Below, in pieces: positions 1,569 to 21,681 of a stretch of DNA of 27,848 nt (position 1 is its first letter; each line of letters starts with the position of its first letter). The stretch lies in the IMG/VR virus record IMGVR_UViG_3300009431_000110, positions 1 through 27,848 of that record, one strand, 5' to 3'. The translations under genes were made by a program, and so were the position numbers. Source of the stretch: a virus. The notes beneath the pieces are model-generated. The model did not search any database. It was not told the origin of the DNA and was given only the letters and a program-made list of their open reading frames with translations.

Positions 1569-3992
1569 CTACTGAGCAAGCATCTGCCGGAAGCGCAGCG
1601 GAAGGAACTCGGCCGGCTTGTTCGGCGCAGCGTAGATGTCCACTGCCAGGATGCCCAGCGCCACGTCCTCAGCCGGGTTGTTCGACTCGTCGCAGACGAC
1701 CTGAAACGCCTCCGTGGGCACCTTGCTCTCGAAATACCCGTTGTTGGTGAGCCGCAACATGAAGCTGTCCAGCTGCAGCTTGATACCCGTTCTCAGGTTC
1801 GCGTTGTTGTTCTCGAACACGTGAGTGTAAACGGCGTTGTAGATGCTCTTCTCCAAGAACATGAACAGGCGGCGTGCCTGGATGTTCCCGAACTCGCCAT
1901 TCACCTGGAGCGTCCTGGCTCCCCAGATCGCTCGGTTCCCCACTGCCGGCCAGTCTACCAGCGGGTTGACTCGGTTCTTGTACAGATGCCCAACCTGGGC
2001 CTTGGTCGGGCTCTTCTCCAGACCCGTGCACCACTTCAGCGCACCATCGTCGGGACCTGCCGGAGCCTTGCCCACGTTCTCGTTCTGGTCGGTGTACGCG
2101 TACCTTCCGGCCACGTGTCCCATGGGAGGAATGTAAGCTGGCCTGTTCGTCACTGGGTCAGTGACCTGGACCCACGGCCAGTAGATCGCACCGTAGCTGT
2201 TGTTGTTCTTGTTCAGAGTCCGCTTCTTGTAGTTCACAGCGCTGGTGTAGGTCGTGCCTACCGGGGTCGTCAGGATGGCGAACCTGTCCTTCTTCGCCTC
2301 ACAGAAGTCCAGCAGCGCACCATCCACGTCCTCGTCTCCGGCGAAGTCCGGGATGCTCACCAGCAAATCATCTTCCACGTTGTTGAGCGCGTAGATACCT
2401 TCGTCAGCGGCCTCCAGTGCTGCTGCCGTGATCTCCGAGCTGGTCACTGCGGAACCGTCCGCTCCGCCCGTCATGTCCTCGGTCAGCGGAGCATCTTCGT
2501 CGTAAGTCGCTCCGGTGTAGTAGGTCGCCAGGATGCTGTCCACTCCCGGAGCTGCGGTAAAGGTCGCCTCCACCTCTCCAGTGTCGTAGTCGATGGTGCC
2601 CGTCCCGTCTCCGGTCAGGTTCCCGTCTCCGTCGTCGGTGATCTCGTCACCATCGCAGGAGATCGTCAGTGTCGTAGGCCAGCAGCTCGCCTCCTCCAGA
2701 GTGAAGGTGAACTCGGTCGTGGTGCCATCCCCGTCCTCGCCCGTGTCCTCATCGGTCACAGCCGAGCCGTACAGACTCGAAGGCACTCCGGTGTTACCAA
2801 CGTCTGTCACGCTGATGTTCTTCGACCCGTTCACGGTGTCATTGACCACGGTCGGGAAGAACTGCGCTGACGTCGAGGTAGTGAAGTCCAACTCCGCATA
2901 CGTCTCGATGTTCGAGTAGTTGTCGTTTGCGTCGGCTTCCCAGAGTCTGACCGTCCAGCGATCGAACGTTCCTGTCGCGTCGTTCTCCCAGCCGGCGGCT
3001 CCCTCCACGGTGATCCGGTAGTCGTTGCCCTTGACGCCTTCCCATCGCATGTCGATCTGCCAGAGCACCTGCTCGTAGCTGTAGAGGAGGCTCTGCGCCA
3101 CAGACGCCGCTGCGGTCGGATACACTGCGGACGGAGCCACGGTGTAAGTGATCGAGATCTCTCCCGTCGTGGCGTCGATCGTTCCGCTCGCGATGTTCGT
3201 TCCGCTGATCACGCCCGCTGCACTCGCCACACCGTCCGTCTCCTGCTCCATCGGCGTGTAGTCGTTGGTAATCGTACTCACCAGCCCTGCATCCGGGATG
3301 TCTCCAGTCGCGTCGAAGACGATCGCTCCAGTGAGGTAGTTGATGGTACTGCCCGCTGCATTTCCGTCTCCGGTGAAACCGCCTTCGCCGTCATCGGTCA
3401 TGCTCTTTGCGACAGTGCCGCTCACCCAATCAATCGTCACCGATCCTGGCTCCAGGCCATCCGCCAGGGTCGGGGTCACGAAAGTCCCCTCACCCGCTCC
3501 GGCACCGGACGTCTTCCAGATGACGATCGCTCCGTCCGGCGCTGTGGACACCGCTGTAGCGCCCGCTACGGGCGTCCCTCGCCTCCAGTGGGAATGCGTC
3601 CATGAAGCTGGCTCGATCGGCGTCTCCGCTGCCTCCCAGCTGAACGTCAGCGTAGCGTTGTCCCCGTCGTCACCGCTGTCCTCGTTGGCCACCGGCTCCG
3701 TCAGGTACGCCACACCCGCCGTCGCTCCACTACCCACGACTCGGTTGATGTAAGCGTACATCCCTCCATTCTTGAAGAAGGCATGCGCGATGGTGGGAAT
3801 CAGACCTGCGCTGATGTAGTTGCCGAACAGTCGCAGAAACTCTGCCATGCCACTGATCAGCGTCGGCTCGTTGACAAGCCCCTTCTCGGTCCAGCCGACA
3901 AGGGCGAGAATCGAGGTCGCTACCCCCTGGATCGGCGCGGGGCCTCCAGCGAGTTCCTCGATATAGGGTCCGGGAGCGTTGTACTCGGGCAT
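1569..3992 (-). CDS. Contractile tail sheath protein with inserted beta modules
   Basis: An 807-aa protein; T4 gp18 is about 660 aa, so this is enlarged. The N-terminus (PGPYIEELAGGPAPIQGVATSILALVGWTEKG) is the classic sheath opening found in Mu, P2 and T4-type sheaths. The C-terminal part carries the conserved sheath fold: NNVEDDLLVSIPDF near 537-550, 'WPWVQVTDP ... YIPPMGHVAGRYA' near 605-632, NRAIWGARTL near 686-695 and 'RRLFMFLEKSI' near 707-717. Inserted around residues 165-290 and 413-492 are Gly/Asp-rich segments with the signature TDDG-G-LTGDG-GTIDY-TG also seen in the capsid and fibre proteins. The start ATG has AGGAG six bases upstream. Sheath subunits polymerise round the tube and contract at injection; the inserts probably decorate the outer surface. 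Confidence 0.93.
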   Translation of the reverse strand: MPEYNAPGPYIEELAGGPAPIQGVATSILALVGWTEKGLVNEPTLISGMAEFLRLFGNYISAGLIPTIAHAFFKNGGMYAYINRVVGSGATAGVAYLTEPVANEDSGDDGDNATLTFSWEAAETPIEPASWTHSHWRRGTPVAGATAVSTAPDGAIVIWKTSGAGAGEGTFVTPTLADGLEPGSVTIDWVSGTVAKSMTDDGEGGFTGDGNAAGSTINYLTGAIVFDATGDIPDAGLVSTITNDYTPMEQETDGVASAAGVISGTNIASGTIDATTGEISITYTVAPSAVYPTAAASVAQSLLYSYEQVLWQIDMRWEGVKGNDYRITVEGAAGWENDATGTFDRWTVRLWEADANDNYSNIETYAELDFTTSTSAQFFPTVVNDTVNGSKNISVTDVGNTGVPSSLYGSAVTDEDTGEDGDGTTTEFTFTLEEASCWPTTLTISCDGDEITDDGDGNLTGDGTGTIDYDTGEVEATFTAAPGVDSILATYYTGATYDEDAPLTEDMTGGADGSAVTSSEITAAALEAADEGIYALNNVEDDLLVSIPDFAGDEDVDGALLDFCEAKKDRFAILTTPVGTTYTSAVNYKKRTLNKNNNSYGAIYWPWVQVTDPVTNRPAYIPPMGHVAGRYAYTDQNENVGKAPAGPDDGALKWCTGLEKSPTKAQVGHLYKNRVNPLVDWPAVGNRAIWGARTLQVNGEFGNIQARRLFMFLEKSIYNAVYTHVFENNNANLRTGIKLQLDSFMLRLTNNGYFESKVPTEAFQVVCDESNNPAEDVALGILAVDIYAAPNKPAEFLPLRFRQMLAQ

Positions 3993-4057
3993 GGGAAACT
4001 CCTTGCGTTCTACGCGTTACTGTTCAGCTTCTACCAACCTCGGCGCTGTGTCGAACC

Positions 4058-4558
4058 CTACTCGCTCGACTTCTTCGGCGACTTCTTGCGGCGAATCCTC
4101 GGCTTTGTGGCAGTTTTGGACTTCTTCTCATCCTTGGACTTCTTCTCATCCTTGGATTTCTTGCCCCTGGACTTCTTGGGCTTCTCGTCCTCGACATCTG
4201 CCTCGGCCTCTTCTTCCGCAACCTCTCGCTTCGCGCCACGCTCCGGCTTTTCCCTGCGCTCTTCTGCGCTCTCTCGAATCAGCTCACTCTTGTCGTTCTT
4301 CACGCTGCCCTCGTACTCGATAGCCTTGGCCATCGGCGAGGGTTCGATCTCCTTGGGTGACTCCACCTCTTCCCGACTCTTGGGCTTGGGCGGCTCCGCG
4401 TACCCCTTGGGGGGAGCGCACCGGATGAAGCTCGACCCGTACTTCCGCACGTACTGCTGCTCGGTCCTCACATGCCCTCTGGGCCTCACCGACTCCACAA
4501 CACCATCGGGTCGCTTCACCGGGACAGTCACCTTGCCGTTGTAGAAGTACCAGGGCAT
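4058..4558 (-). CDS. Protein with small N-terminal domain and Lys-rich disordered tail
   Basis: A 166-aa protein. I chose ATG 4558 because GGAGG sits six bases upstream and the previous gene's TAG ends at 4560; ATG 4576 would extend six codons into that gene. Residues 1-55 look like a compact domain (MPWYFYNGKVTVPVKRPDGVV ... YVRKYGSSFIRC), while the rest is charged and disordered: first mixed Glu/Lys, then an almost pure Lys/Ser end (KKSKDEKKSKDEKKSK, RIRRKKSPKKSS). The tail contains an 18-bp tandem duplication. It sits directly upstream of the sheath gene and 3' of a probable tail-completion gene. The layout resembles the H1-like protein at 13655-14368. DNA binding or capsid-surface binding is possible but unproven. 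Confidence 0.75.
   Translation of the reverse strand: MPWYFYNGKVTVPVKRPDGVVESVRPRGHVRTEQQYVRKYGSSFIRCAPPKGYAEPPKPKSREEVESPKEIEPSPMAKAIEYEGSVKNDKSELIRESAEERREKPERGAKREVAEEEAEADVEDEKPKKSRGKKSKDEKKSKDEKKSKTATKPRIRRKKSPKKSSE
4116..4151. repeat. Two 18-bp tandem repeats in coding sequence
   Basis: TTGGACTTCTTCTCATCC occurs twice head to tail (4116-4133 and 4134-4151), followed by a degenerate third start. On the minus strand it encodes the repeated hexapeptide in KSKDEKKSKDEKK of the Lys-rich protein, so copy number could vary without a frameshift. Confidence 0.9.
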
Positions 4559-4559
4559 G

Positions 4560-5282
4560 CTATTCCTCCAACTCATCCATCTTGGCCGTGTCTACTGTCG
4601 GCAACTGGTATACAGAGACTTCTGAAGTCACGGCCCTCACGTCCAGCTCACCATGAATCAACAACGTAAGGGTCCACCCTACGTCGCGCGCTGTCAAGTC
4701 TAGCACTTCTGTCGTCTGATTCATACTCTCAATGAAGGCATCGTAACTTCTTTCGTCATCTATCGAGTCCGTCACGTAAATCAGCCCGCCTGGCGGCGTG
4801 AAAATCTCCATCATATGCTTCAGCATCAGATTCGAATCTTGCTGCGCTCTACCCCCCCGGGCATGCAAAATGATCTCGTATCTGAGGTTGTAAGGTGGGG
4901 CCGGCTGCTTCGAGTCGTAACTGTCGTACCCTGTCTCTTCGCTTCCGTCAGGAAACTCGATCGTGACCTCGCTTGCTCCATCTGACGGGATACGATCCTC
5001 CACTCCCCATGACTGCCCACCATTCTGCATCGCCAACTCGGGGTCCTGTCTTCGGATCACAACGCATGGAAAAATTCGCGGACTAAACGGCACTCTCCCT
5101 GCCACGAAGAAGATCGGAACATGCCCTCCATACTCCGAAGGCCCTGTCACTCCAGTCATGTTGATCGCGTATTCCTGCCTCGTCCCGCCATCAACCGTGT
5201 AGTCCACCAACTCCCCGCCGACTCTCAGGACGACTCCAAGATCGAAATCACCGATGAATACTGTCCCTACCGTCGCCGTCAT
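4560..5282 (-). CDS. Probable tail-completion or tail-terminator protein
   Basis: A 240-aa protein of unrecognised family, rich in beta strands (MTATVGTVFIGDFDLGVVLRVGGELVDYTVDGG) with a mid-region around residues 75-90 (PCVVIRRQDPELAMQNGGQ) and a C-terminal alpha/beta portion (LDLTARDVGWTLTLLIHGELDVRAV). No membrane segment or catalytic motif. Its ATG overlaps the stop of the preceding gene in an ATGA tetranucleotide, indicating translational coupling. Position between connector-type genes and the sheath is where contractile phages encode the protein that caps the tail or joins head and tail, but this assignment is contextual. Confidence 0.7.
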   Translation of the reverse strand: MTATVGTVFIGDFDLGVVLRVGGELVDYTVDGGTRQEYAINMTGVTGPSEYGGHVPIFFVAGRVPFSPRIFPCVVIRRQDPELAMQNGGQSWGVEDRIPSDGASEVTIEFPDGSEETGYDSYDSKQPAPPYNLRYEIILHARGGRAQQDSNLMLKHMMEIFTPPGGLIYVTDSIDDERSYDAFIESMNQTTEVLDLTARDVGWTLTLLIHGELDVRAVTSEVSVYQLPTVDTAKMDELEE

Positions 5283-6154
5283 CGCGGCACCTTACGCCTT
5301 CCGAGAATCAGCCCTTGGAACCACTCGATCTTCTCGAACATCTCCTGACCACCCGTTCCTACTACCAGATTCGGCAATGCCCGTCTGTCTCCAAGCAAGT
5401 ACCGGATGAACTTCTCCGCTAGATACCTGTCGCCCTTTGCCGTCGTGCGGACCATTTTCCGCCAGTGGGGCTGCGCCTGCTCACCCTTTAGGCCAAACTC
5501 GATGCGCGCCACGCGCCACGCCACATCTTCCTGGGCCTCGATCTTACCAGAGATCCTTCTCCCAAGAAGCTTCTTCTTTGCAGTCTTGACAGGAACCTGA
5601 TTCCCGATCACACCCCACTTCGCCATCCACGACCGCACCACTCCGTTCTTGAGCAGCTGGCTCATCCTCGCCAGGTACTCGTCCGTGCTCACCCTTCTCG
5701 TGATGATACGCGCGTCCTGCCGTCTCAAACTCATCAACTGGACCATACACGTCGGCCACGGTGAGAACTCCCGCAACACCGCCATCTTGTTCCGCAACGC
5801 TGGGTTGACGCCCCTTCCCTCGTCACTTCTCTGCGCCAGCTCGAAGTAAACTACCGTCTGCTTCATTTCAGCCGATGACAGGTTTCTGGTCATCCTCGGC
5901 AGAACCAACGCTACTGAGTCCATGCTTTCGACCTTGCGCGCAAGCGTCACGATCTCCAGCTCGCGATAGTCCACATACTCAATTCCAGCCCCCTCCTCGC
6001 GAACGATTTCCTCCGCCTGTACCGCTACCTGGCCGAGAAACCGGCGCACGGCCTGATCCCAACGTCTCTCTACCTGGTCTAGATTCTTGAGTAGTTTCCG
6101 CGTACCAGGGCTCAACTGGATGTCGAGCATGGTCTTTTTGGGGCGCTTCGGCAC
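5279..6154 (-). CDS. Unknown basic protein in neck/tail-completion cluster
   Basis: A 291-aa, Arg/Lys-rich, mostly helical protein. The frame opens with GTG at 6154, one base after the TGA of the zinc-ribbon gene; an in-frame ATG at 6130 is the alternative, and neither has a strong ribosome site. Early residues (SPGTRKLLKNLDQVERRWDQAVRRFLGQVAVQAEEIVRE) form an amphipathic helix typical of tail-assembly proteins of the HK97 gp10 type, but the rest (ITRRVSTDEYLARMSQLL, HWRKMVRTTAKGDRYLAEKFIRYLLG) is not one I recognise. It ends overlapping the next gene by four bases. A structural neck or minor tail role is inferred from context. Confidence 0.7.
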   Translation of the reverse strand: MPKRPKKTMLDIQLSPGTRKLLKNLDQVERRWDQAVRRFLGQVAVQAEEIVREEGAGIEYVDYRELEIVTLARKVESMDSVALVLPRMTRNLSSAEMKQTVVYFELAQRSDEGRGVNPALRNKMAVLREFSPWPTCMVQLMSLRRQDARIITRRVSTDEYLARMSQLLKNGVVRSWMAKWGVIGNQVPVKTAKKKLLGRRISGKIEAQEDVAWRVARIEFGLKGEQAQPHWRKMVRTTAKGDRYLAEKFIRYLLGDRRALPNLVVGTGGQEMFEKIEWFQGLILGRRKVPR

Positions 6155-6155
6155 G

Positions 6156-6515
6156 TCAGCCTACAAGCTGGACGGTCTCTTCTTTGACCATTCCGCCAGC
6201 AACCTTCTTCACATCCTTCTTGGCTCTCTCCATGTGCTTCTTGCACACGCCTACCCGGCTTTGGCCTATCCGGACGGCCCCGACGCTCGACTCGCCGCAA
6301 AAGTAGCAGAGGTTTACTAGCACCGCCCTCGTCAGTGGCCCTTTGTAATCAGGAAACGTCCTCCCCATACTGGGACCGCCGCAACCGCTCATCCCGCAAG
6401 AAACCGACACCTCTCTCTTGTGAAGGCGTCTTCCCCATACCTCTTGCAATCGATTGCAGCTTGCACAAACGAAGGTGAATCCGTTTCTTCGTAACTCCTC
6501 GTAGATCTTCTCCAT
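6156..6515 (-). CDS. Zinc-ribbon-like protein
   Basis: A 119-aa protein with two metal-binding patterns: C17-x2-C20 with C40-x4-C45, and C70-x2-C73 with C91-x2-H94. This looks like one or two treble-clef or zinc-ribbon units. The C-terminus is Lys-rich and amphipathic (KKHMERAKKDVKKVAGG). ATG 6515 has AAGGGA close upstream. Cys-rich proteins are unusual among structural genes, so it may be a regulator, a nucleic-acid-binding protein or a metal-stabilised minor virion protein. A full copy of the dispersed palindrome lies within codons 19-24 and encodes C-N-R-L-Q inside the first metal site region. Confidence 0.75.
   Translation of the reverse strand: MEKIYEELRRNGFTFVCASCNRLQEVWGRRLHKREVSVSCGMSGCGGPSMGRTFPDYKGPLTRAVLVNLCYFCGESSVGAVRIGQSRVGVCKKHMERAKKDVKKVAGGMVKEETVQLVG
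6445..6458. promoter_or_regulatory. Dispersed palindrome, copy 2
   Basis: TGCAATCGATTGCA, a perfect 14-bp palindrome, lies inside the zinc-ribbon gene about 60 bases after its start codon. It is read there as codons TGC AAT CGA TTG CAA. Confidence 0.85.
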
Positions 6516-6552
6516 GTCCCTTACCTGCTCCCTACTGGAGCTACTTTGATCC

Positions 6553-7287
6553 CTAGATCGCGCCAGCCAGCCTCAGCTGGCGCTGCACGTTCTTCTTCTT
6601 GTCCGCGGTCAAGCCGTGCTTCTTCGCGGCCCGGTCGATCCCGTGGGTCTTGATGTCCGTCCAGATCTGCTCGGACCACATCCGGTCGTTTTTGAACAGC
6701 TTCAGGAGCACTTTCACCCCGGCTCTCAGCTCCCTGCTTCCCGCCGTCACTGGAAGAGGGCCTGAATCGGCCTGACGCCCCGGATCGGGCACCTGGGTTG
6801 ATGCCTCGTCCAAATTCGGCTCGCCAGCTTCGTTCGCCTGCATCACCGCGAAGTCATACAGGGACGTCGCATACTCCCGAAGCTGATCCACGCCGTTGCT
6901 GCTTCGGATGGACACCATTTCGTCCGTCACGGTCTCGACCACTCCCGATCCGACCGTCCTGCCGATCTTGGAAAGCACGAGAACGTTCTGGCCCTTCTCC
7001 AGATCCTTCGCCTCGGTCTTCATGCCGAACATGTCCTCACCCAGCTCGGGCTTCACGAGGATCTCCGCAGCCTTCTTCCAGTCGATCTTCGACATCACCG
7101 TCTCCTCATTCTTCGGCTCGCACTCGTAGTCCGGGTTCGTGCACCGATTCTTGTAGAGCGTCGTCACGAGCTTGTAGAAGCGATCCGAGTCCTTTTCCGA
7201 GTCTATCTTCGGATACTGCTCGCGGACCTTCCCCTTGGCCCACTGCCATGCCTTCTCTGCGTCTTTTCCTTTGAGCCAGGCTGGCAT
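6553..7287 (-). CDS. Unknown connector-cluster protein with a possible internal start
   Basis: A 244-aa protein. I chose ATG 7287, which overlaps the upstream gene's TAA (TAATG) and has GGAG nine bases away; a longer frame to 7410 is a shadow. Residues 1-60 (MPAWLKGKDAEKAWQWAKGKVREQYP ... DRFYKLVTTLYKNR) match a small helical domain I know from phage virion proteins of the 'eKAWekAK ... VttLYk' type. A second start at 7095 (MSKIDWKKAAEIL) has a textbook AGGAG site. The middle (EKGQNVLVLSKIGRTVGSGVVETV) looks like a small beta barrel, and the C-terminal 60 residues are helical and basic. Function unknown; virion assembly is likely from context. Confidence 0.75.
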   Translation of the reverse strand: MPAWLKGKDAEKAWQWAKGKVREQYPKIDSEKDSDRFYKLVTTLYKNRCTNPDYECEPKNEETVMSKIDWKKAAEILVKPELGEDMFGMKTEAKDLEKGQNVLVLSKIGRTVGSGVVETVTDEMVSIRSSNGVDQLREYATSLYDFAVMQANEAGEPNLDEASTQVPDPGRQADSGPLPVTAGSRELRAGVKVLLKLFKNDRMWSEQIWTDIKTHGIDRAAKKHGLTADKKKNVQRQLRLAGAI

Positions 7288-7817
7288 TACGTCACTCTCC
7301 GCTCGGGATCGAACGACTTCCGCCGCTTCAGCGTCAACTTCCAGTCCGTGAACACGTTCGTGGGACCGTAGTTGCCGTTCTCCTCGACCTTCAGAACCTC
7401 GAACCACCACGGCTTCGAAGTAGTCGTATGGAATCCTACCACATCCCCCTCATGGGGCGCGGAGAATCCCTGCTCAGGATCTGCATCTGCCGCATTTACA
7501 TCCGTGTTCCACGTGAGCACGTCCACACTCATAATCCCATCGTACTCGCGCTCGATGATCCCGTCTTCGGTGTCTTGCTCGTACTGGCCGTTGGCTTCCT
7601 CGAACTCCACCGTGCAGATGAAGGCGTAGGGGCCTCGGTAGTCTCCCTGGTCAGATGTCTCGCGGTAGAGTGAGTTGTAGTTCTCGGCTCTATCCAGCGC
7701 GTAGTACGCTACAGCTCCGGTCGCACTGAGCATGTTCGCAGACCACTGTGCGTAGTCTTGCGCAATCGATTGCGCCCAATCTTGTTCGTCGGTGCAGAAT
7801 GGTGTTCCGGTTCCCAT
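7287..7817 (-). CDS. Probable head-tail connector / head-closure protein
   Basis: A 176-aa protein starting at ATG 7817 behind GGAGG. The C-terminal part (GDVVGFHTTTSKPWWFEVLKVEENGNYGPTNVFTDWKLTLKRRKSFDPERR) has the rhythm of contractile-phage head-completion proteins, in which a strand 'FEV.KV...G..G' is followed by 'W.L.L.RRS.F.P.RR'. The first 60 residues are helical. It is coupled to the next gene by a TAATG overlap. The dispersed palindrome sits 42-57 bases after the start codon, here in a different reading frame (A-Q-S-I-A). Assignment is by motif resemblance and position between capsid and sheath. Confidence 0.7.
   Translation of the reverse strand: MGTGTPFCTDEQDWAQSIAQDYAQWSANMLSATGAVAYYALDRAENYNSLYRETSDQGDYRGPYAFICTVEFEEANGQYEQDTEDGIIEREYDGIMSVDVLTWNTDVNAADADPEQGFSAPHEGDVVGFHTTTSKPWWFEVLKVEENGNYGPTNVFTDWKLTLKRRKSFDPERRVT
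7760..7775. promoter_or_regulatory. Dispersed palindrome, copy 3
   Basis: GCGCAATCGATTGCGC, a perfect 16-bp palindrome, lies inside the 5' end of the probable head-closure gene. It shares the 12-bp core with the other copies but is read in another codon phase. Confidence 0.85.
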
Positions 7818-7840
7818 GCCACCTCCAGGCTACGGGAACA

Positions 7841-8515: not shown

Positions 8516-8530
8516 CTTTTGTACCTCACA

Positions 8531-8582
8531 CTGCAGTTGTACCCACGTTGTACCTCTCCAGAGGATAACAGGTCAACTGCAG
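8531..8582. repeat. 9-bp inverted repeat bracketing a promoter
   Basis: CTGCAGTTG at 8531-8539 and CAACTGCAG at 8574-8582 are perfect inverted copies separated by 34 bases. The right arm overlaps the -35 and the left arm lies just past the predicted start point of the promoter at 8547-8576. It could be a paired operator or a long-loop hairpin. Confidence 0.6.
8547..8576 (-). promoter_or_regulatory. Sigma70-type promoter for connector genes
   Basis: On the minus strand TTGACC (8576-8571) is followed after 18 bases by TACAAC (8552-8547). The start codon of the next gene is at 8515, giving a leader of about 25 bases. GGTACAA occurs three times between the -10 region and the start codon. This is the only gap (8516-8602) in an otherwise tight gene run, which supports a promoter. 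Confidence 0.5.
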
Positions 8583-8602
8583 ATTCTCCACTGAAACATG
8601 CC

Positions 8603-9622
8603 CTACCCAGTGATGAATGGCATAGGGGGCGTCAGGCCCTTCACCTTCTCATTCAGGTCTGCCATCTCCGTCTCGGCCTGGCCCGCCAACGTCTCGCCGT
8701 TCATCGAAACTTTGCCCCCCGCGACCGCCACCTCGGAGTACTTCGATCGCATATTTCCGAGCACCATCTTCGCCCACGCCAACGCCCATCTCCGCAGCAG
8801 CCAATACCGCTGCTTCGTGATCTTCGAGTAATCCACGAGATCCGACACGTAGTAGTACTTCGCCGTCCCGGTCAGCTCCAGGGGGCTCAGGTGCAACGTC
8901 TGCGCGTATTGATCGTAGTGCCAGCTTCTGTCGTTCGATAGAACACGACGTAGCTGCTCGTGGTACTGATACGTCTGGTAGACATCCGGGCCAAGCCTCA
9001 TGCCTCCCCCGCCTGACGTCGTCATGTAGCTATATGGGAGCCCGCTCAGGCCGAGAAACGACTCCGACCCTACCACGTCCATGATGGTGTCTACACCTGG
9101 GAACGCCACATCGTAAACAAGCGCACAGTCACTCTCGACGTCATACTCACCCTGACCTGACACCAGAGTCAAATCCGCCGACTTCGTCTGCGCGAAGTGC
9201 GCCATAAGCCACGTCTCGGCCTCTGTCACTGCATCGTCGAAGTGATCGTCTGTCAACTCCACGCACTGGGTCGGGTATCCCAACTGCCTTTGGACCCATT
9301 CCTTCACCGCCGTGCGCTGGGTCGTCGCTCCTACCGAAAACGCGTAATCGTCGTGGTCCTCGGTATACTCCGTCCCATCGACTTCGTAGGTCCAGCGAAT
9401 CGTGAATTCGCCCGCTTGCGTCGGTGCCCACGGAGCTATGTACGTCCCCACCTCCGGATTCGTGATGTCTCCAGAGTCGATCGTATCGATCTGCACCTCG
9501 TCCCCGTCCAGGACTACTACTGTCGGCGTATCGTCCGCGTCGATCGAGATCGACCCGTCCTCTGTCTCCAGCGTGATCTCCAAATCGAACTGACTGGTTT
9601 CGCCAACGATATTCAGCGACAT
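8603..9622 (-). CDS. Neck/connector structural protein with N-terminal Ig-like domain
   Basis: A 339-aa protein with two parts. Residues 1-100 (TSQFDLEITLETEDGSIS ... GTYIAPWAPTQAGEFTIRWTYEVDG) look like an Ig- or fibronectin-like beta sandwich. Residues 105-339 match a recurrent phage structural family as I know it: an early helix (DDAVTEAETWLMAHFAQ), 'GEYDVESDCALVYDVAFPG', an aromatic 'YQTYQYHEQLRRVL' region, 'LHLSPLELTGTAKYYYVSD', then 'RRWALAWAKMVLGNMRSKYSEVAVAGGKVSMNG' and a helical end finishing in PPMPF. This family is often annotated as neck or head-completion protein. ATG 9622 has AGGAG five bases upstream. The preceding gene also resembles the N-terminal domain. Confidence 0.7.
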   Translation of the reverse strand: MSLNIVGETSQFDLEITLETEDGSISIDADDTPTVVVLDGDEVQIDTIDSGDITNPEVGTYIAPWAPTQAGEFTIRWTYEVDGTEYTEDHDDYAFSVGATTQRTAVKEWVQRQLGYPTQCVELTDDHFDDAVTEAETWLMAHFAQTKSADLTLVSGQGEYDVESDCALVYDVAFPGVDTIMDVVGSESFLGLSGLPYSYMTTSGGGGMRLGPDVYQTYQYHEQLRRVLSNDRSWHYDQYAQTLHLSPLELTGTAKYYYVSDLVDYSKITKQRYWLLRRWALAWAKMVLGNMRSKYSEVAVAGGKVSMNGETLAGQAETEMADLNEKVKGLTPPMPFITG

Positions 9623-9630
9623 CTCGGCTC

Positions 9631-9954
9631 CTACCCCTCGTACTTCGAGGCCCGCCCCTGCACGATACCATCCACGTAGATCGCCTTGAAGTTCGTGAAC
9701 CCCTCGCTACCCTCGACGTCAACGATCTTCCACGAGGCTACGTGAGCCCCAGCTCTTACCGGCGTATACGACGCTCGAAACAATCGGCCGTGATCTGTCG
9801 GCGTCGTGACTTCCGAGGTGGTGACTGAAACCCATTCTGTCCCGCCAGCCGCCGTGGGCCTCTCTACCTCACACTCGACAGTAATTTCTGAGTCGTCGGG
9901 CAACTCCACCTGGTAGAGCAACGTATGGGCCTGACCTACGTAGACTTTGTCCAT
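9631..9954 (-). CDS. Single Ig-like beta domain protein
   Basis: A 107-aa protein that appears to be one beta-sandwich domain: alternating hydrophobic strands (HTLLYQVELPDDSEITVECEVERP, GRLFRASYTPVRAGAHVASWKIVDVEG). The pattern '(R)LFRASYTPVRAGAHVASWKI' parallels 'GTYIAPWAPTQAGEFTIRWTY' in the N-terminal domain of the next gene, suggesting duplication. Its ATG at 9954 follows the previous gene's TGA by only three bases, so translation is coupled. No signal peptide or catalytic site. Likely a small virion attachment or decoration protein; function not established. Confidence 0.7.
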   Translation of the reverse strand: MDKVYVGQAHTLLYQVELPDDSEITVECEVERPTAAGGTEWVSVTTSEVTTPTDHGRLFRASYTPVRAGAHVASWKIVDVEGSEGFTNFKAIYVDGIVQGRASKYEG

Positions 9955-9957
9955 CTC

Positions 9958-10512
9958 TCAATTCCACTGCCGAAGATTGCCCAACTCCACCAACGGACCA
10001 GCTACTGCTCCAGCGCCCTCGCGCATCTTCCCAATCGTATCATCTTCGTAGACATCTGCCACGAAACTCCTTGTGACCGTCTTCGAGGTGAACAGCCCCA
10101 AGATGAAGAACTTCCGCTTCCTGGGTTGTCTTGGCGCGCTCTCCACCACAGCAGAAGGAACGAACGCCATCTTCTCGGTCAGCTCTTTCTTCGGTAGTTC
10201 CGACCACTTCTTGACCATCTGCCCGAGCTGAATGACGCAAAAACCGACCACACCCTCCTCCTGCACAGCCTCTTCAGCAAGATCCAGATCGATTGGATGG
10301 CCAAGCGCTATGCCAGCTCCCGGCAAGGTGAGAATCGGCTTGTCTTCTTTGAGGATTTTTCTGAACACGTAGAGCATGGGAACTACGGGAAATCCATGAT
10401 CTCTCAGCTCTATCGTTCTTTGAACAAGGAAGCGACTCCATCCGAGCATCTTCTGCTCGTCCAGAACCCCGGAAAGATCAGCTTTGAGCTTCGACGGAGG
10501 CAGACTTTGCAT
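9958..10512 (-). CDS. Unknown protein of connector cluster
   Basis: A 184-aa protein if ATG 10512 is used, with AAGGA upstream; a GTG at 10545 in the same frame would add eleven basic residues. The start lies inside the end of the preceding gene (35-base overlap). Residues 20-75 are helical with a hydrophobic strand (HGFPVVPMLYVFRKILKEDKPILTLPGAGIALGHP); residues 85-110 include GVVGFCVIQLGQMVKKWSELP; a basic patch RQPRKRKFFILGLF follows at about 130. No family recognised. It is coupled at both ends to neighbours and probably belongs to the same structural unit. Confidence 0.7.
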   Translation of the reverse strand: MQSLPPSKLKADLSGVLDEQKMLGWSRFLVQRTIELRDHGFPVVPMLYVFRKILKEDKPILTLPGAGIALGHPIDLDLAEEAVQEEGVVGFCVIQLGQMVKKWSELPKKELTEKMAFVPSAVVESAPRQPRKRKFFILGLFTSKTVTRSFVADVYEDDTIGKMREGAGAVAGPLVELGNLRQWN

Positions 10513-11002
10513 CTTCTGAGTCTTCCTTTTTCTTCTCCGACTCACGGACCTTGTCCCGGATTGTCGTCATCGCCCCCTTCACACCCTCGACAAGCTCGGC
10601 CGTTCTCTTCTTGATGTCCTGGGCAAACGTTCCACCCAGCTTCGCGATCCTCTTGACAGCATCGACGGAATTCCACGGCAGCTTGACCGACTGTGCAGCC
10701 ACCATCGACGAAACGACATCGACTACCGTTTCATACTGGTTGTGCGTCAGGACATGCAATCGATTGCCAAGAATGTCATACCTCTCCCCGGTCTCCATAT
10801 TGACGATCATCCCCGCCTTACCGAATCTTGCCGGCTGAGCAAGAATCGCGGCTTTGGCATCTTCGAGCGTCTTCCATCCCATCGGATCGAACTCGATCCG
10901 GAACGGTCTCGCCATCTTCCCGGGAATCTTCCCTTTTGCCACCGACTGCGTCTTCTTCTGGTACGCCGTCTTGATCTTGGGCTTCTTGATCTTCTTCACC
11001 AT
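10478..11002 (-). CDS. Unknown basic/helical protein, first gene of its unit
   Basis: A 174-aa protein. ATG 11002 is preferred over the adjacent GTG at 11005 because GGAGG lies six bases upstream. The first 35 residues are very basic (MVKKIKKPKIKTAYQKKTQS); residues 35-85 look like a small alpha/beta domain (RPFRIEFDPMGWKTLEDAKAAILA ... AGMIVNMETGERYDILGNRLHVL); the rest is helical, with a coiled-coil-like charged end. It is the first gene after a hairpin terminator and a GGTATAGT promoter element, so it begins a transcription unit. It contains palindrome copy 4, read as G-N-R-L-H. Function unknown. Confidence 0.72.
   Translation of the reverse strand: MVKKIKKPKIKTAYQKKTQSVAKGKIPGKMARPFRIEFDPMGWKTLEDAKAAILAQPARFGKAGMIVNMETGERYDILGNRLHVLTHNQYETVVDVVSSMVAAQSVKLPWNSVDAVKRIAKLGGTFAQDIKKRTAELVEGVKGAMTTIRDKVRESEKKKEDSEDAKSASVEAQS
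10756..10767. promoter_or_regulatory. Dispersed palindrome, copy 4
   Basis: GCAATCGATTGC lies mid-gene in the 174-aa protein and is read as codons AAT CGA TTG within G-N-R-L-H. Flanking bases are not symmetric here, so the 12-bp core is the minimal unit. Confidence 0.8.
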
Positions 11003-11040
11003 CACGCACCTCCGCGCATACCTGTAGGGTTGATGGCCAA

Positions 11041-11046
11041 ACTATA
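11041..11046 (-). promoter_or_regulatory. -10 element (GGTATAGT block) before the 174-aa gene
   Basis: Minus strand GGTATAGTTTGG places a TATAGT -10 hexamer about 40 bases before the ATG at 11002, directly after a hairpin terminator. A poor -35 (TTCCTT, 17-base spacing) is present. The same block GGTATAGT-TGG occurs at 14399-14404 in the same context. Confidence 0.45.
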
Positions 11047-11069
11047 CCACGGAGAGGGAAGGGAAGGAA

Positions 11070-11096
11070 CTCCCGGGGAGCCTCGCCCCCCGGGAG
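11070..11096 (-). terminator. Terminator hairpin after the fibre/decoration gene
   Basis: On the minus strand CTCCCGGGG and CCCCGGGAG form a perfect 9-bp stem around a 9-base loop, 16 bases past the stop codon at 11113. A pyrimidine-rich tract (TTCCTTCCCTTCC) follows rather than a clean T-run, so termination may be partial. Confidence 0.6.
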
Positions 11097-11112
11097 CCAT
11101 TGTAAGGGCAGG

Positions 11113-13197
11113 CTAGAACGCGTGGCCCATGTTCACCCGATGGTACGCCTCGACCATCAGCTGCGCAGTCGCGACGATGATGCTCGGCGTCCCGTCGATG
11201 GTATCCTGGCCATAGAACTTGAAGATGTACATGCCGCTGTCTCCGGCCACCACCTTGAAGTACGCGTTGTAGTACCCTGTGATGCTCGCGTCGTCGTTCA
11301 TCACTCGGTAGGTCGTCGCCGGAGCGCTGTTCTCGTTGTCCGACGCACTCAGGTTAGTCTCCAGGTTGCTCGCGGTGTACAGCAGCGAACCCTTGTCGGT
11401 TCCTGCGCTGTCACGGCACTCCACGTACATCTCGCCCGTCGGGCTCGTACCGAGAGTATCCAGCGACTCCTGGACCCCGGTGGCGAGGTCGCGAGCCAGG
11501 GCGCTGAACTCGATAGCCAGATCACTCTGGCCGATCGCCGGGCTCATGAGCGTGGCCGGCACCATCGGAACGACAGCCGCACCTGCCATCTTGGCGTCGA
11601 GGGTATCCACGACGCTCTTGATCGCCGCCACGTCCGCGCTCATGCTGGCACCTGCCGGGGCACCCATCCGCGAGTACATGGCCTGCTGACCGGAACCTGC
11701 GTCGCTCTGGCTGTTGGCGAAGGTGGACCCCACCTTGCTCTGGAGATCCTGGGTGTCGGTCTCGATGGCATCCGCAGTGCTCTTCACCGCCGCGACATCC
11801 GCACTCACCGACGCGCCAGCCGGCGAGCCGATCTTGGACTGGATGTCCTGGGTGTCGGTCTCGATGTTCCCGAGGTCGGTGTCGAGAGCGCTCAGGCCGT
11901 AGGTGCCATGCTCCAGCATCGTCTCGATGTTCTGGAGGGTCTGGCCCGCGGTCCCTGCCGTGGTGTGACCGCTCAGGGCTTCGTCCCACACCTGGTCTGC
12001 GAGATCTCCACCGCCACCGATCACGCCGTAGATCAGCTCCAGGGCACCAGCCACGTCGGTCGCTCCGTCACCGCCCAGCTCGGTCTCCTCGGAGACATCG
12101 CCGATCTCGGTCTTGACCAGCTCGATGTCGGTCTGGTTGGCGTCCACCGCGGTCTTGATGGCCCCGAGGCCGTCCGTTCCGTTGCTCAGGTCGGTCTGGA
12201 TGCCATCCACCACGGTGTCTACCGTGTCGATCAGGCTCTTCAGGTTCGCGAGCCCGTTGGTGCCATCGTCCAGGATGTCTGCGTAGTTGGCAATTGCCAA
12301 CAGAGCCGTCGCCAGGTTGTCCGGCGAGCCATGAACACCTTCGAACTCGTCTTCGATGTTCCCTGCGAGCTGCTCGTCGATCGCGCTGTAGATGCGCCTC
12401 TGGCCTGTTCCCAGATCCTCCGATTCCAGATCACCGAGAACGTCCAGCTCGATGTAGTCCACGGTCAGGTCGCCCGCGACGGGAGCTGTCCCGAACGTGA
12501 CAGAAACGGCCCCGGTGCTGTAGTCGATGGTGCCGCTGTCCGGGGCCGAGAAGCCTCCAGAGCCGTTGTCGTACGCCTTGTCATCGGAGTCCCCACTGCT
12601 GTAGACCTCCACCGATCCGGGACGGATGGACTCCTCATCGACGGTGATGGTGAACGAGAACTCGGTCTCCACGCCATCGCAGTTCTCACCCGTATCCACT
12701 TCCTCGGACACGACACGACCCGGAGTACCGCGGTTGTCCGCTGCCACCATGAGGCCGTAATCGCTGTCGCTGACGATATCGAGAAGGATCGTCCCAACAC
12801 CCGATCCAGCGTCGTCGAGAGCGCTGGACCCCAACACCGCCAACAGGCTCTGTAGATTCGTCAGGTCGGAGAAGTCGCCGATCTCCGCCCCGAGGGTGTT
12901 GACATCCTCGGCCTGCATGGTCCACATGGGGATGGTGATCGTCTCGCTCGCGGACTTGCACACGGCGTAGTAGTTGTTGCCTGTCGCCATGTCCCCCGAA
13001 TCGACCTGGAGGGCGTAAACGCCGTTCTCCAGATCGATCACTCCCGAAGCTCCCGTGAGGGAGATCGTCGGATCGGGATCTGTCCCGTACTCCGCACGGT
13101 ACACCGTGGGGGTGAACGTCTGGCCCGCTCCCTCTGCGCTGATGAAGGGGAAGTAGGCGTTTCCCGTGACTACCTTGGTTTCTGCATACCGACTCAT
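11113..13197 (-). CDS. Repetitive fibre or decoration protein
   Basis: A 694-aa protein probably displayed on the virion. Residues 1-100 are beta-rich and resemble N-terminal domains that sense or attach (QTFTPTVYRAEYGTDPDPTISLTGASGVIDLENGVYALQV). Residues about 168-248 hold the module shared with sheath and capsid protein (GVETEFSFTI ... GTIDYSTGAVSVTFGTAP). Residues about 270-560 are coiled-coil-like, with short repeats including a 33-residue unit (IETDTQDIQSKIGSPAGASVSADVAAVK). The end (about 565-694) is again beta-rich. It has its own promoter candidate, a long leader and a terminator, consistent with high independent expression. Tail fibre, whisker or capsid decoration are all possible. 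Confidence 0.75.
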   Translation of the reverse strand: MSRYAETKVVTGNAYFPFISAEGAGQTFTPTVYRAEYGTDPDPTISLTGASGVIDLENGVYALQVDSGDMATGNNYYAVCKSASETITIPMWTMQAEDVNTLGAEIGDFSDLTNLQSLLAVLGSSALDDAGSGVGTILLDIVSDSDYGLMVAADNRGTPGRVVSEEVDTGENCDGVETEFSFTITVDEESIRPGSVEVYSSGDSDDKAYDNGSGGFSAPDSGTIDYSTGAVSVTFGTAPVAGDLTVDYIELDVLGDLESEDLGTGQRRIYSAIDEQLAGNIEDEFEGVHGSPDNLATALLAIANYADILDDGTNGLANLKSLIDTVDTVVDGIQTDLSNGTDGLGAIKTAVDANQTDIELVKTEIGDVSEETELGGDGATDVAGALELIYGVIGGGGDLADQVWDEALSGHTTAGTAGQTLQNIETMLEHGTYGLSALDTDLGNIETDTQDIQSKIGSPAGASVSADVAAVKSTADAIETDTQDLQSKVGSTFANSQSDAGSGQQAMYSRMGAPAGASMSADVAAIKSVVDTLDAKMAGAAVVPMVPATLMSPAIGQSDLAIEFSALARDLATGVQESLDTLGTSPTGEMYVECRDSAGTDKGSLLYTASNLETNLSASDNENSAPATTYRVMNDDASITGYYNAYFKVVAGDSGMYIFKFYGQDTIDGTPSIIVATAQLMVEAYHRVNMGHAF
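11747..11866. repeat. 99-bp-period coding repeat in the fibre gene
   Basis: A 21-base block beginning TCCTGGGTGTCGG is identical at 11747-11767 and 11846-11866. Its 99-base offset equals the 33-residue protein repeat around IETDTQD-QSK-GS. A third, diverged protein-level copy (SRMGAPAGASMSADVAA) lies about 60 residues further on. Confidence 0.8.
12286..12301. repeat. Perfect 16-bp palindrome, distinct from the main family
   Basis: GTTGGCAATTGCCAAC lies inside the fibre gene. It shares GCAA/TTGC half-sites with the dispersed palindrome but lacks the four central bases, so the half-site spacing differs. It may be chance. Confidence 0.4.
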
Positions 13198-13214
13198 TTG
13201 CGTAGTTCTCCAAC

Positions 13215-13257
13215 AAAACCGGGGTTTTCACGCTGCATTGGCGTGGTTGGGAACCAC
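13215..13257 (-). promoter_or_regulatory. Structured leader of the fibre gene
   Basis: Two short inverted repeats lie in the roughly 96-base leader: GTGGTT-CCC-AACCAC (13257-13243) and AAAACC-CC-GGTTTT (13228-13215, a loop of only two bases), the latter next to the GGAG ribosome site. They could form RNA hairpins that tune translation or mRNA stability; no known riboswitch pattern is recognised. Confidence 0.35.
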
Positions 13258-13299
13258 TGCTTCTGGCGGCATGTTTTTTATGGTGAGCCGAACACGGAT

Positions 13300-13329
13300 A
13301 TTGTAACTGGACTACAAAGGCAAAATCAA
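13300..13329 (-). promoter_or_regulatory. Sigma70-type promoter of the fibre gene
   Basis: Minus strand TTGATT (13329-13324), 18 bases, then TACAAT (13305-13300). It starts 15 bases after the stop of the DUF5659-like gene and would produce a leader of about 96 bases before ATG 13197. This is the best promoter match in the window. Confidence 0.6.
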
Positions 13330-13343
13330 CCGCTATCTCGCCA

Positions 13344-13622
13344 TCACTGCCGAATCATCTTCATCTGGGCCTTGCACTCCAGATACTCTCGAAAATACGA
13401 AACTTCGCTCGATTGCCCCCACTTGATGAAATACTCCCGGGCTTCCCCTTCAGTTAGCTCGAAAACCCAGAAAACACGCCGGCCCTTTCGGTTTTTATCT
13501 TCTCGTCGAAAAACCGTGATCTGCTTGACCTTCTTGTGCCGTAAATAGGCCGCAAACCCTATCTTATCCACTGGGAACAGGGGGCCTGTCTGTACACCTG
13601 TGTCCTGCTCCTTTACCAACAT
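13344..13622 (-). CDS. DUF5659-like small protein
   Basis: A 92-aa protein. Its body (FPVDKIGFAAYLRHKKVKQITVF ... RRVFWVFELTEGEAREYFIKWGQSSEVSYFREYLECKAQMKMI) follows the DUF5659 pattern as I recall it: an N-terminal 'D.. lAAYL..kG' helix, a strand pair ending in a 'F.F' motif, then a C-terminal helix pair with 'F...Y'. The family is common in phages and has no assigned function. ATG 13622 has GAGG five bases upstream. The dispersed palindrome fills the 16-29 bases before the start codon, next to the ribosome site, so it could affect expression of this gene. Confidence 0.7.
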   Translation of the reverse strand: MLVKEQDTGVQTGPLFPVDKIGFAAYLRHKKVKQITVFRREDKNRKGRRVFWVFELTEGEAREYFIKWGQSSEVSYFREYLECKAQMKMIRQ

Positions 13623-13637
13623 CCCTGCCTCTGTGGC

Positions 13638-13651
13638 CGCAATCGATTGCG
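13638..13651. promoter_or_regulatory. Dispersed palindrome, copy 5
   Basis: CGCAATCGATTGCG lies in the 32-base gap between the Lys-rich gene (stop at 13655) and the DUF5659-like gene (start at 13622), three bases past the TAG codon. Confidence 0.85.
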
Positions 13652-13654
13652 AAT

Positions 13655-14368
13655 CTACTTCGTGGCTGCCTTCTTACGCCGCACCCGCTTCGGCTTGGGC
13701 TTGTCCGTTTCCTTCTTCGCAGTCTTGTTGCCTGCGGTCTTCTTGGTCTTCGCCGTGGCCTTCTTGGGTGCCTTTTTGGTCGTCTTTTCCGCACTCTTCT
13801 TCGATGTCTTCTCCGGGGTCTTCTTCGGGGCCTTCTTTGCGAGCTTCGCCTTGGCCGCTGCCCCCGTCGTGCCCTTCGTCGTCTTCTTGATCGTAACCTT
13901 GTCGTCGTCCGTGCCAAGCACTCCGTCCTCGCCCGCATCACGGTGGACTGTCACAGCACCGACCGGAGTCTCGATCTTGGTGGGCGGCTCCACCTTCGTC
14001 TTCGAGATAGACTTCGGCTCGGCAGCAGGCTTCGATTCAGCCCGTTTCGGCTCCACAACAGGCTCAGGAGCGGCTTCAGGCTCATTGGGCATATCCAAGG
14101 CCGTCTCGGGCTCCGGCGGCTCAGGAGTGGACTGTGAGGCTGTCTCATCCACCAACTTCCGGGCAGTCCCGGCTTTCACGATGGGTCTACGGACTCGTCT
14201 CACCCTCTGCAAAAGCGACCCCTCCCACAACGCCCACCGCTCGCCGGCCACCTCGTCTTCCCGATCGAAGAAAGTATGGCCTTCGCCATCGACCGGATTG
14301 ACCGTCACTCCACCCTTGGGGATATTCACGTTCTTGTGCAGTTTGAATCTCGGTTCCTCTTTCACCAT
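13655..14368 (-). CDS. Protein with histone H1-like Lys/Ala-rich tail
   Basis: A 237-aa protein. ATG 14368 is chosen because it has AGGTGG eight bases upstream and follows the -10 at 14399-14404; ATG 14410 would lie upstream of that promoter. Residues 1-65 form a compact domain (MVKEEPRFKLHKNVNIPKGGVTVNPVDGEG ... WALWEGSLLQRVRRVRR). Residues 75-160 are Pro/Glu-rich and disordered. The last ~75 residues are Lys/Ala/Thr/Pro-rich (KKAPKKTPEKTSKKSAEKTTKK, ending RVRRKKAATK), like eukaryotic H1 tails and bacterial H1-like or AlgP-type proteins. It is the first gene after the capsid protein's terminator. DNA condensation or capsid association is plausible; neither is shown. Confidence 0.75.
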   Translation of the reverse strand: MVKEEPRFKLHKNVNIPKGGVTVNPVDGEGHTFFDREDEVAGERWALWEGSLLQRVRRVRRPIVKAGTARKLVDETASQSTPEPPEPETALDMPNEPEAAPEPVVEPKRAESKPAAEPKSISKTKVEPPTKIETPVGAVTVHRDAGEDGVLGTDDDKVTIKKTTKGTTGAAAKAKLAKKAPKKTPEKTSKKSAEKTTKKAPKKATAKTKKTAGNKTAKKETDKPKPKRVRRKKAATK

Positions 14369-14398
14369 CGGAAGTACCACCTTTCTTGAACAATCCAC

Positions 14399-14404
14399 AC
14401 TATA
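14399..14404 (-). promoter_or_regulatory. -10 element (GGTATAGT block) before the H1-like gene
   Basis: Minus strand GGTATAGTGTGG gives a TATAGT hexamer between the capsid protein's terminator and ATG 14368, with about 24 bases of leader. No good -35 is visible. The near-identical block at 11041-11046 suggests a shared phage promoter type. Confidence 0.45.
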
Positions 14405-14440
14405 CCGCATCTGTCCCGGAAACTCATACCTCCAAACGCC

Positions 14441-14470
14441 AAAAGGCGACTCCCCGTGAGGAGAGCCGCC
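14441..14470 (-). terminator. Rho-independent terminator after the capsid gene
   Basis: Minus strand arms GGCGGCTCTCC and GGGGAGTCGCC form an 11-bp stem (two G-U pairs) with loop TCAC, followed at once by TTTT. It lies 34 bases past the capsid gene stop and is the clearest terminator in the window. Confidence 0.8.
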
Positions 14471-14504
14471 CTTCGGTTCGGCTCAGCCTAACCGCTCAAT
14501 GCGA

Positions 14505-15989
14505 CTAGGTCGGCAGGCCGGTGATGGAGATGTCGCAGTAGTACTCGCTCCGGAGCACTCCGCTCGCGTACCGGGTCCGCATGCCCTTCTTGTAGTCCTG
14601 GCTGTCGGGGTCCAGGAACGTCGGGGTCATCTGCAGCGGGATGTAGGGAGCGTAGTACGCGCCTGCATCCATGAAGCTGCGTCCCTTCAGGCCCATGATG
14701 GCTGCCTTGGTCGCCGTCGCGGCGGTCAGGAACGGGTCCTGGTAGATCGCCCACTTGTTCATGAGCGTTCCGGCTCGCATCACTCCGAACTGGCTGGTCA
14801 GGGGACCGTAGCTTCCGGGGTTCTGCGGGTCCACGGGGCCGTAGGGGTCATCCGGGTTGCTGGTGAAGATCGGCCTGTAGTCGCCATGCGTGGTCAGCTG
14901 CTCCATCAGGCCCACGACCTCGGGGGTGCTCACGATGAAGTTCGCCGGGGCGCGCTTGGTGTCCACGTAGATCTTCGCACTGCGAGCACTCAGGATGGTC
15001 AGTAGATTCCTGATCGCGTCCAGCTCACCGACCGCGCCAGTCGGCTTCGCGTAGGCCCAGCTGGAGGTGCTTCCCGCGCCCGTCTTGATCATCTCGATCA
15101 TGGTGCGGTCGATCTCCAGCGCGACCTCATTCGCGATCCCTGCGACCAGCTCGGTCTCGGCCTCGATGCCATGGAACGCCTTCAGGTCGTCCGCGGCCTC
15201 GGCACTCCACACCGCCTTCAGCTTCCGGGTCTCCGCCCGGACCTCGGTCATGCTCAGGGCAATGTTCACCTCGGGAACGTCCGTGTTGCTCTCGGAGTTG
15301 TACCAGTAGGTGACCGTGATGTCCTGGTCTGCATCCGGCGCAGCGTCGAACGTCACCTCGATCGCTCCGGTGGTGTAATTGACGGTTCCACTTCCGCCTG
15401 CGTCGCCCGTGAGCGCTCCTGCACCATCGTCAGTGAAGGTCTCGGTGCCGTCCGTGACCGTCACGCTCCACCCGTTGTCCGCGTCTAGGCCACGAACCGG
15501 GGTCCACTCCAGCGTGCCGCTGAAGGTATCCTCGGAACCATCGCCAGTCCACCCGGTCGGCTGCTCCTCGGGCACCTTCTCCGAGCTGTACCAGTTGTCG
15601 AAGGTCTCGATCAGGTTGTCGTTCGCGCTCACCGATCCCTTGGCGTTGGCGTGCTGGTACTCGTAGGTGAAGACCGCGCCGACAGGGGCCGTCATCGGCT
15701 GCACCGTGAGGATCTCGTGTGCGATCAGGTTCGGGAATACCCGGCGCAGCACCGGGAAGACGTACTTGACGAACGACCCTGCGCCGCTCGCCTGCGTCTC
15801 CTCGGTCATGCCGTCGAGATACTCCAGCTCCGTCTCCAGGAGCAGGGCGGTTACGCCCGCCTTGTGGGGACCCTTGACCCCTTCCAGCAGACTGGCCCAC
15901 TTCCTCTTCAGCTGCCCCACGAATGAGGCGTCGTGAACGGATCGCTTTCCGTTCTCCTGCAGAAACCGCATTTCTCGTGCTTCGGTCAT
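14505..15989 (-). CDS. Major capsid protein, T4 gp23-like, with inserted beta module
   Basis: A 494-aa protein that would form the capsid lattice. Residues 74-110 (VKYVFPVLRRVFPNLIAHEILTVQPMTAPVGAVFTYEY) match the gp23 hallmark in which an 'RR.FPNL.A...VGVQPM..PTG' block opens the HK97 fold. Later 'VALEIDRTMIEMI' and 'ANFIVSTPEVVGLME' also fit. Residues 146-230 hold an inserted beta module (GWTGDGSEDTFSGTLEWTP ... GTVNYTTGAIEVTFDAAPDA) that occurs in the sheath and fibre proteins as well. Glu-rich stretches at 50-65 could be cleaved by the upstream protease, as in T4; that is inference. ATG 15989 has a strong AAAGGAG site, fitting high expression, and a terminator follows. Confidence 0.92.
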   Translation of the reverse strand: MTEAREMRFLQENGKRSVHDASFVGQLKRKWASLLEGVKGPHKAGVTALLLETELEYLDGMTEETQASGAGSFVKYVFPVLRRVFPNLIAHEILTVQPMTAPVGAVFTYEYQHANAKGSVSANDNLIETFDNWYSSEKVPEEQPTGWTGDGSEDTFSGTLEWTPVRGLDADNGWSVTVTDGTETFTDDGAGALTGDAGGSGTVNYTTGAIEVTFDAAPDADQDITVTYWYNSESNTDVPEVNIALSMTEVRAETRKLKAVWSAEAADDLKAFHGIEAETELVAGIANEVALEIDRTMIEMIKTGAGSTSSWAYAKPTGAVGELDAIRNLLTILSARSAKIYVDTKRAPANFIVSTPEVVGLMEQLTTHGDYRPIFTSNPDDPYGPVDPQNPGSYGPLTSQFGVMRAGTLMNKWAIYQDPFLTAATATKAAIMGLKGRSFMDAGAYYAPYIPLQMTPTFLDPDSQDYKKGMRTRYASGVLRSEYYCDISITGLPT

Positions 15990-21669: not shown

Positions 21670-21681
21670 GCAATCGATTGC
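21670..21681. promoter_or_regulatory. Dispersed palindrome, copy 7
   Basis: GCAATCGATTGC overlaps the last base of the large terminase stop codon and ends 14 bases before the portal ATG, occupying half of the 25-base intergenic gap. Confidence 0.85.

Follow-up and report, generated by a model that had tools for sequence, protein, structure and literature searches.

Whether a phage can use one and the same domain on its head, its contractile tail and a fibre, and to what end, is the question raised by IMG/VR record IMGVR_UViG_3300009431_000110. The whole stretch analysed (the window, 27,848 nucleotides or 27.8 kb) carries a T4-like structural gene block on the minus strand; three of its products, the tail sheath protein, the gp23-type major capsid protein (MCP) and a fibre-like protein, contain, as judged from sequence, homologous copies of a single domain some 85 residues long, hereafter the module. 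A single module in sheath, capsid and fibre had been proposed from the letters of the window alone (the original prediction), and this is borne out both by direct BLASTP comparison and by a profile of copies from elsewhere.

One domain in sheath, capsid and fibre-like protein

Regarding the direct evidence, the modules were compared by BLASTP, with composition statistics on, with the 25 translated open reading frames (ORFs) of the window: sheath copy B matched the fibre-like protein with an E-value of 4.6e-12 and the MCP with 3.6e-11, the MCP copy matched the sheath at 6.0e-9 and sheath copy A at 9.6e-6, and the fibre copy matched the MCP at 3.2e-6. The external profile was made from 83 copies from outside the window, which were gathered by iterating from the window sequences and hence are not fully independent of them; the pairwise BLASTP evidence is independent of this profile, so its circularity leaves the direct tests untouched. 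The highest decoy score with the external profile, among 1,500 shuffled and 25 reversed proteins, was 12.2 bits, and no window protein matched it beyond the three; the next best, orf8603 (E 0.16), was rejected as a further carrier.

As for the copies themselves, their bounds are hidden Markov model (HMM) envelopes and are collected in Table 1. The residue positions of the original prediction were correct to within a few residues and every copy that it listed stands, but it had overlooked the short third copy in the sheath, which is also found, at residues 241-297, in the sheath of the nearest relative, L080. The sheath, the fibre-like protein and the MCP are strongly acidic (isoelectric point, pI, 4.05-4.6), with scarce Lys and Arg, and the modules alone have a pI of about 4.05.

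The near-identical stretch of sheath and fibre DNA noticed earlier is real and present once in each gene: the 15-mer GTAGTCGATGGTGCC has exactly two occurrences in the window, against an expectation of 0.08 when as many as 2 mismatches are allowed. It was rejected as a sign of recombination, since the word encodes the conserved peptide GTIDY. Recent exchange between the copies of this phage was rejected as well, because they are mutually about 40-47% identical over profile columns and copies elsewhere are equally near; the capsid copy is 61% identical to a non-capsid copy, that of L008. In a tree of 34 copies, built from 82-85 columns and thus of little resolving power, a single clade of MCP copies was not rejected (approximately unbiased, AU, test, p 0.51); because one such clade fits, it is not claimed that the capsid copy was swapped in from a different protein, although its 61% identity to the L008 copy had suggested this.

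Table 1. Module copies, shared 15-mer and genes of the structural block, in window coordinates
Feature	Position	Strand	Remarks
Capsid module copy, residues 145-232	15294-15557	-	insertion (I) domain site; 94.5 bits, external profile
Sheath copy A, diverged, residues 161-250	3243-3512	-	insertion site 1, filled also in relatives; 31.6 bits
Sheath short third copy, residues about 251-300	3093-3242	-	profile match ~237-300; 21.9 bits
Sheath copy B, residues 413-495	2508-2756	-	insertion site 2; 70.1 bits, external profile
Fibre-like protein module copy, residues 168-250	12448-12696	-	59.3 bits, external profile
Shared 15-mer, sheath copy	2586-2600	+	encodes GTIDY
Shared 15-mer, fibre copy	12520-12534	+	encodes GTIDY
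Tail sheath protein, 807 aa	1569-3992	-	PHROG 23 tail sheath 4.3e-64; Pfam Phage_sheath_1C 8.7e-06, slightly under cutoff
Head-tail adaptor	8603-9622	-	
Fibre-like protein, 694 aa, coiled-coil-like repeats	11113-13197	-	weak fibritin (neck whisker) PHROG match, E 0.0015
Lysine-rich protein, 251 aa	13655-14410	-	
gp23-type MCP, 494 aa	14505-15989	-	Pfam Gp23 E 1.8e-62; PHROG 138 major head protein 2.1e-60
Protease with long fused C-terminal part	16002-18020	-	
T4-type portal	19850-21655	-	
Terminase large subunit, weakly supported	21681-23729	-	PHROG E 2.9e-5

Fold and conservation of the module

AlphaFold2 modelling with 36 copies gave a confident eight-strand all-beta domain, with a mean predicted local distance difference test (pLDDT) score of 90.7 and a predicted template modelling (pTM) score of 0.81. 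When this model was compared with the PDB by Foldseek, gp23 of phage P1 (9UKM) was the top match and the only one at probability 1.00, with a template modelling score on the query (TMq) of 0.60, every other match among those listed having a TMq of 0.47 or less; a profile search of the PDB independently recovered P1 gp23 (8.7e-5, residues 208-299), and in the P1 genome the profile found one locus (6.6e-8). Among predicted viral structures, the best match was an unnamed 197-aa protein (TMq 0.79), with a tail sheath protein at 0.75 and several MCPs at up to 0.71. The best matches of the full MCP model were P1 and T4 gp23.

Conservation is concentrated in the DDGxG and NYxTG tight turns and in residues of the core strands, with D40, G42, G44, G54, Y58, T60 and G61 (profile numbering) as the conserved positions, among which no exposed aromatic patch is evident; this pattern favours a conserved scaffold over a conserved binding site.

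The idea of an Ig-like domain, put forward earlier, did not survive the family search and structure comparison and was rejected. None of the 36 copies matched an Ig family, there was no match to Ig, Big_2 or FN3, and the best Ig-type PDB chains reached a TMq of about 0.41-0.44 with E >2; a subthreshold Big_8 match (E 0.12) falls at sheath residues 263-285. No domain family covering the module was found in Pfam or NCBIfam.

Sites of the module in capsid and sheath

Relatives were gathered with the MCP part downstream of the module as bait, and the best 80 of 222 related contigs were surveyed; near-duplicates occur among these loci, and the counts are therefore not numbers of independent phages. 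The MCP carried a significant module at a fixed site in 71 of the 78 loci in which the site was intact, while the remaining seven had a longer insert there; those inspected partly keep a T-x-G or x-T-G-like motif. This site, between the N-terminal part and a conserved strand/helix region (VPEVNIAL...RKLKAVWS), is constant in the 78 relatives.

At least one copy was present in all 30 recognised sheaths of the surveyed loci and in three truncated sheath-like ORFs (L081, L091 and L098, of which L081 alone was compared with the sheath), a total of 33/33. The sheath copies occupy one or both of two sites, and their number and flanks differ between relatives; in an alignment of seven sheaths, L018 and L025 are without a copy at site 1 and L065 has none at site 2. 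The sheath profile aligns with solved sheaths only over the N-terminal ~110 and the C-terminal ~275 positions, with the modules in between; judging by this alignment, the sheath has the multi-domain (type 3) plan, in which extra domains stand between an N- and a C-terminal core part.

Because 71/78 MCPs and 33/33 sheaths carry the module, the domain is constitutive in this uncultured clade; it is dispensable in the wider gp23 family, of which Ettore has a gp23-type MCP without it, and is not a recent insertion. The concern that the segment might be part of the capsid core in all homologues thus holds within the clade, where the site is fixed, and fails for other gp23-type MCPs such as that of Ettore. 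That the module would decorate both head and tail agrees with its expected outward position, which is based on the site of the P1 I-domain for the capsid (PMC12810830) and on the inter-core site for the sheath (PMC9230969).

Single-sequence searches of viral contigs gave no close relatives of the MCP or the sheath. Two relatives stood nearest to the window; one of them, L080, is 67% identical in the C-terminal part of the MCP and has the same plan, with one copy in the MCP and three in an 819-aa sheath. Its slot between MCP and adaptor holds a single 355-aa ORF and lacks the fibre gene. By this comparison, the window genes at 9631-14410, between MCP and head-tail adaptor and with the fibre-like protein included, look lineage-specific. 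Relatives of the fibre-like protein match its repeat part only. In L035 (positions 1-1608) a terminase-like N-terminal part runs in one open frame into an MCP, which it meets where the module starts; this is probably an assembly chimera, though the joint coincides with the module boundary, and L035 was excluded from the alignment for the MCP fold.

Spread in other phages

A scan of viral contigs seeded with three copies gave 71 loci (a five-copy alignment was too diverse for pattern search), and the iterated profile found the module in 92 ORFs of viral contigs. The ORFs were grouped by their module-free parts and the groups labelled from sampled members: there were 17 MCPs (including L035, the likely chimera), 7 sheaths and 3 baseplate wedge proteins; 15 proteins of about 800 aa, a sampled member of which matches PHROG 3287 (virion structural protein); a set of 12, mostly of about 1,200 aa, with tandem arrays that reach six copies and a sampled member that matches PHROG 6128; 11 adaptor-like proteins, represented by one that matches PHROG 10775 and, slightly under cutoff, SU10_adaptor; 10 ORFs of about 640 aa; and singletons, one of them tail-fibre-J-like. 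Three to six tandem copies in about 1,050-1,260 aa are seen in L047, L048, L050, L054, L058-L061, L072 and L078.

The nine cultured carriers, Xanthomonas phiXF1, Bacillus SP-15, Listeria LIS04, Maribacter Colly_1, E. coli IME392, QdP_Psa3, Thermus phiLo, Ab1-TPeters and P1, each have just one copy. In five of the nine the protein concerned is an annotated capsid protein; in phiXF1 it is an MCP by homology and in P1 it is gp23, while phiLo and Ab1-TPeters have the copy in an ORF that is of capsid-protein size and has no annotation, and that in Ab1-TPeters directly follows the head maturation protease. As for uncultured phages, the 595-kb phage LR756511 has two weak copies, one in its MCP and the other in a protein of 353 aa, and contigs searched whole gave 2 to 8 matches in 18 of 22 and one match in the other four, counts that include many incomplete contigs and in which a copy that is split may be scored twice. 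This distribution suggests that the capsid position is the common one and that the expansion into the sheath is specific to the clade of the window.

Role of the module and alternatives

The copies are homologous, have a common predicted family fold, occupy fixed sites in MCP and sheath and are retained across a large uncultured clade. They are, with reasonable probability, one promiscuous phage beta domain that acts as a structural plug-in, projecting outward and tying or spacing neighbouring subunits. In the capsid the module would serve as the I-domain of the gp23-type MCP; in the sheath the same domain would occupy both insertion sites, which lie between the N-terminal and the C-terminal part of the core; and the fibre-like protein, encoded beside the head genes, would carry a further copy in this phage. 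By analogy with P1 and with other sheaths, the copies would project from the virion surface, and they would mainly have a structural task, to bridge adjacent subunits or hold them at a distance, like the I-domain between P1 capsomers and, as has been proposed, the extra domains of sheaths, while the outer surface of the module would be left free to vary.

Several points weigh against this structural role. Outward projection in sheath and fibre is predicted from sequence position and the literature, the Foldseek E-value for P1 gp23 is modest (0.037), the model of the complete MCP is of low confidence (pTM 0.58), and T4 gp23 is absent from the 50 best structural matches of the isolated module; moreover, a ligand site in variable loops may be compatible with conserved turns. 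Adhesive decoration, the view of the original prediction, by which the copies of head, tail and fibre would weakly bind bacterial glycans, mucus or particles and so raise encounter rates, is a possible though rather doubtful explanation. It would suit the many copies per virion, expected to face outward and spread across head, neck, tail and baseplate proteins, as well as the proposal that extra beta-sandwich sheath domains aid adhesion (PMC9230969) and the occurrence of some copies in tail fibre, central tail fibre J or depolymerase-like proteins (L023, L032). However, family searches of the module gave no carbohydrate-binding match, its conserved residues belong to turns and core and not to an exposed aromatic set, the solved capsid example (P1) has an assembly role, and the nine cultured phages, with hosts including Bacillus, Thermus and Escherichia, have a single capsid copy (for two of them judged from the size and place of the gene only). 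A reading of the module as an Ig-like adhesin finds no support.

A mobile or duplicable domain that fits into any accepting loop and serves no common function, its recurrence reflecting shuffling and structural tolerance, is quite an unlikely account of the module. The many unrelated carrier proteins, the tandem arrays of up to six copies in the PHROG 6128 proteins of about 1,200 aa and the differences in copy number and flanks between related sheaths speak for such tolerance; that nearly all members of the clade retain the module at one MCP site and at one or more sheath sites argues for selection instead, and swapping is not seen among the MCP copies, which fit a single inherited clade. Convergence or low complexity in place of homology is hardly credible: the copies are indeed acidic and rich in Gly, Thr and Asp, but their scores far exceed those of shuffled decoys of equal composition, and an ordered motif runs across 85 columns in about 200 copies that share one confident fold; decoy scores and fold model refute this reading.

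The structural plug-in could also be taken further, as a capsid insertion domain that this uncultured clade has put to new use in giving head and contractile tail the same outer coat, selected for contacts between like modules or for one shared ligand. This is unlikely; if true, head, neck, sheath and fibre would evolve a common surface chemistry. Should the sheath copies touch one another as the capsid copies do, a single plug-in domain would explain the stabilisation of two lattices. P1 and SP-15 are workable systems for probing the role of the module, and a profile of the domain would aid the annotation of head, neck, sheath and baseplate proteins in uncultured phages.

Neighbouring genes

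The 251-aa lysine-rich protein has a Lys/Ala/Pro/Thr-rich, histone-H1-like tail with repeats at 13712-13861. A ParB-like nuclease and a glycosyltransferase-like protein are encoded at 25374-26321 and 26264-27700, upstream of the packaging genes.

Comparison with known systems

The Ig-like domains (Big_2, I-set, FN3) are accessory beta domains that recur in the heads and tails of a variety of phages; their exchange among phage structural proteins is attributed to Fraser et al. 2006 by later papers (PMC10276861, PMC9230969). The module resembles them in this recurrence and differs in having no family match and no match above TM 0.5 to an Ig fold. DUF2460 (PF09343) matched weakly in 6 of the 36 copies (best 2e-5), the whole-protein match covering profile positions about 88-174 only, and its cutoff was not reached among the whole proteins scanned (best 21.4 vs 30.4 bits). 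All 36 sampled copies matched PHROG 6128 and eight of them PHROG 1014, both of unknown function; these are whole-protein families and not a named domain family.

As for the capsid, the I-domain of P1 gp23 is beta-rich, protrudes from the capsid and contacts the P-domain of the adjacent capsomer (PMC12810830). The module of the window MCP lies in the same place, and P1 gp23 is both its best structural match and recovered by sequence; family, site and predicted P1-like fold agree in identifying the capsid copy as the I-domain of gp23-type MCPs. The I-domain of T4 gp23/gp24 is the corresponding region of a homologous MCP; it stabilises capsomers (PMC3185693), is called similar to that of P1 by the authors of the P1 work (PMC12810830), and, like those of P1 and phi29, bridges subunits (PMC12810830, PMC3185693). 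It is described as chitin-binding-like, whereas the isolated module has no significant sequence alignment with T4 gp23, which aligns in the whole-MCP comparison only.

In sheaths, additional domains lie between the N- and C-terminal core parts, away from the tube (Evseev et al. 2022, PMC9230969); they have been proposed to stabilise the sheath discs, and the beta-sandwich ones to serve in adhesion (PMC9230969). The inserts of the window sheath have the same inter-core position as the extra domains of type 3 sheaths, which are described as Ig-like; unlike these, they are not recognisably Ig and are related in sequence to the capsid domain of the same phage. P1 has a single copy, in the capsid only, whereas the phage of the window also has the domain in its sheath and fibre-like protein. 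In conclusion, capsid insertion domains and sheath extra domains, previously described apart, belong here to one family by sequence; they are known kinds of part in an unusual combination, and both are united in the same virion, throughout a large environmental clade.

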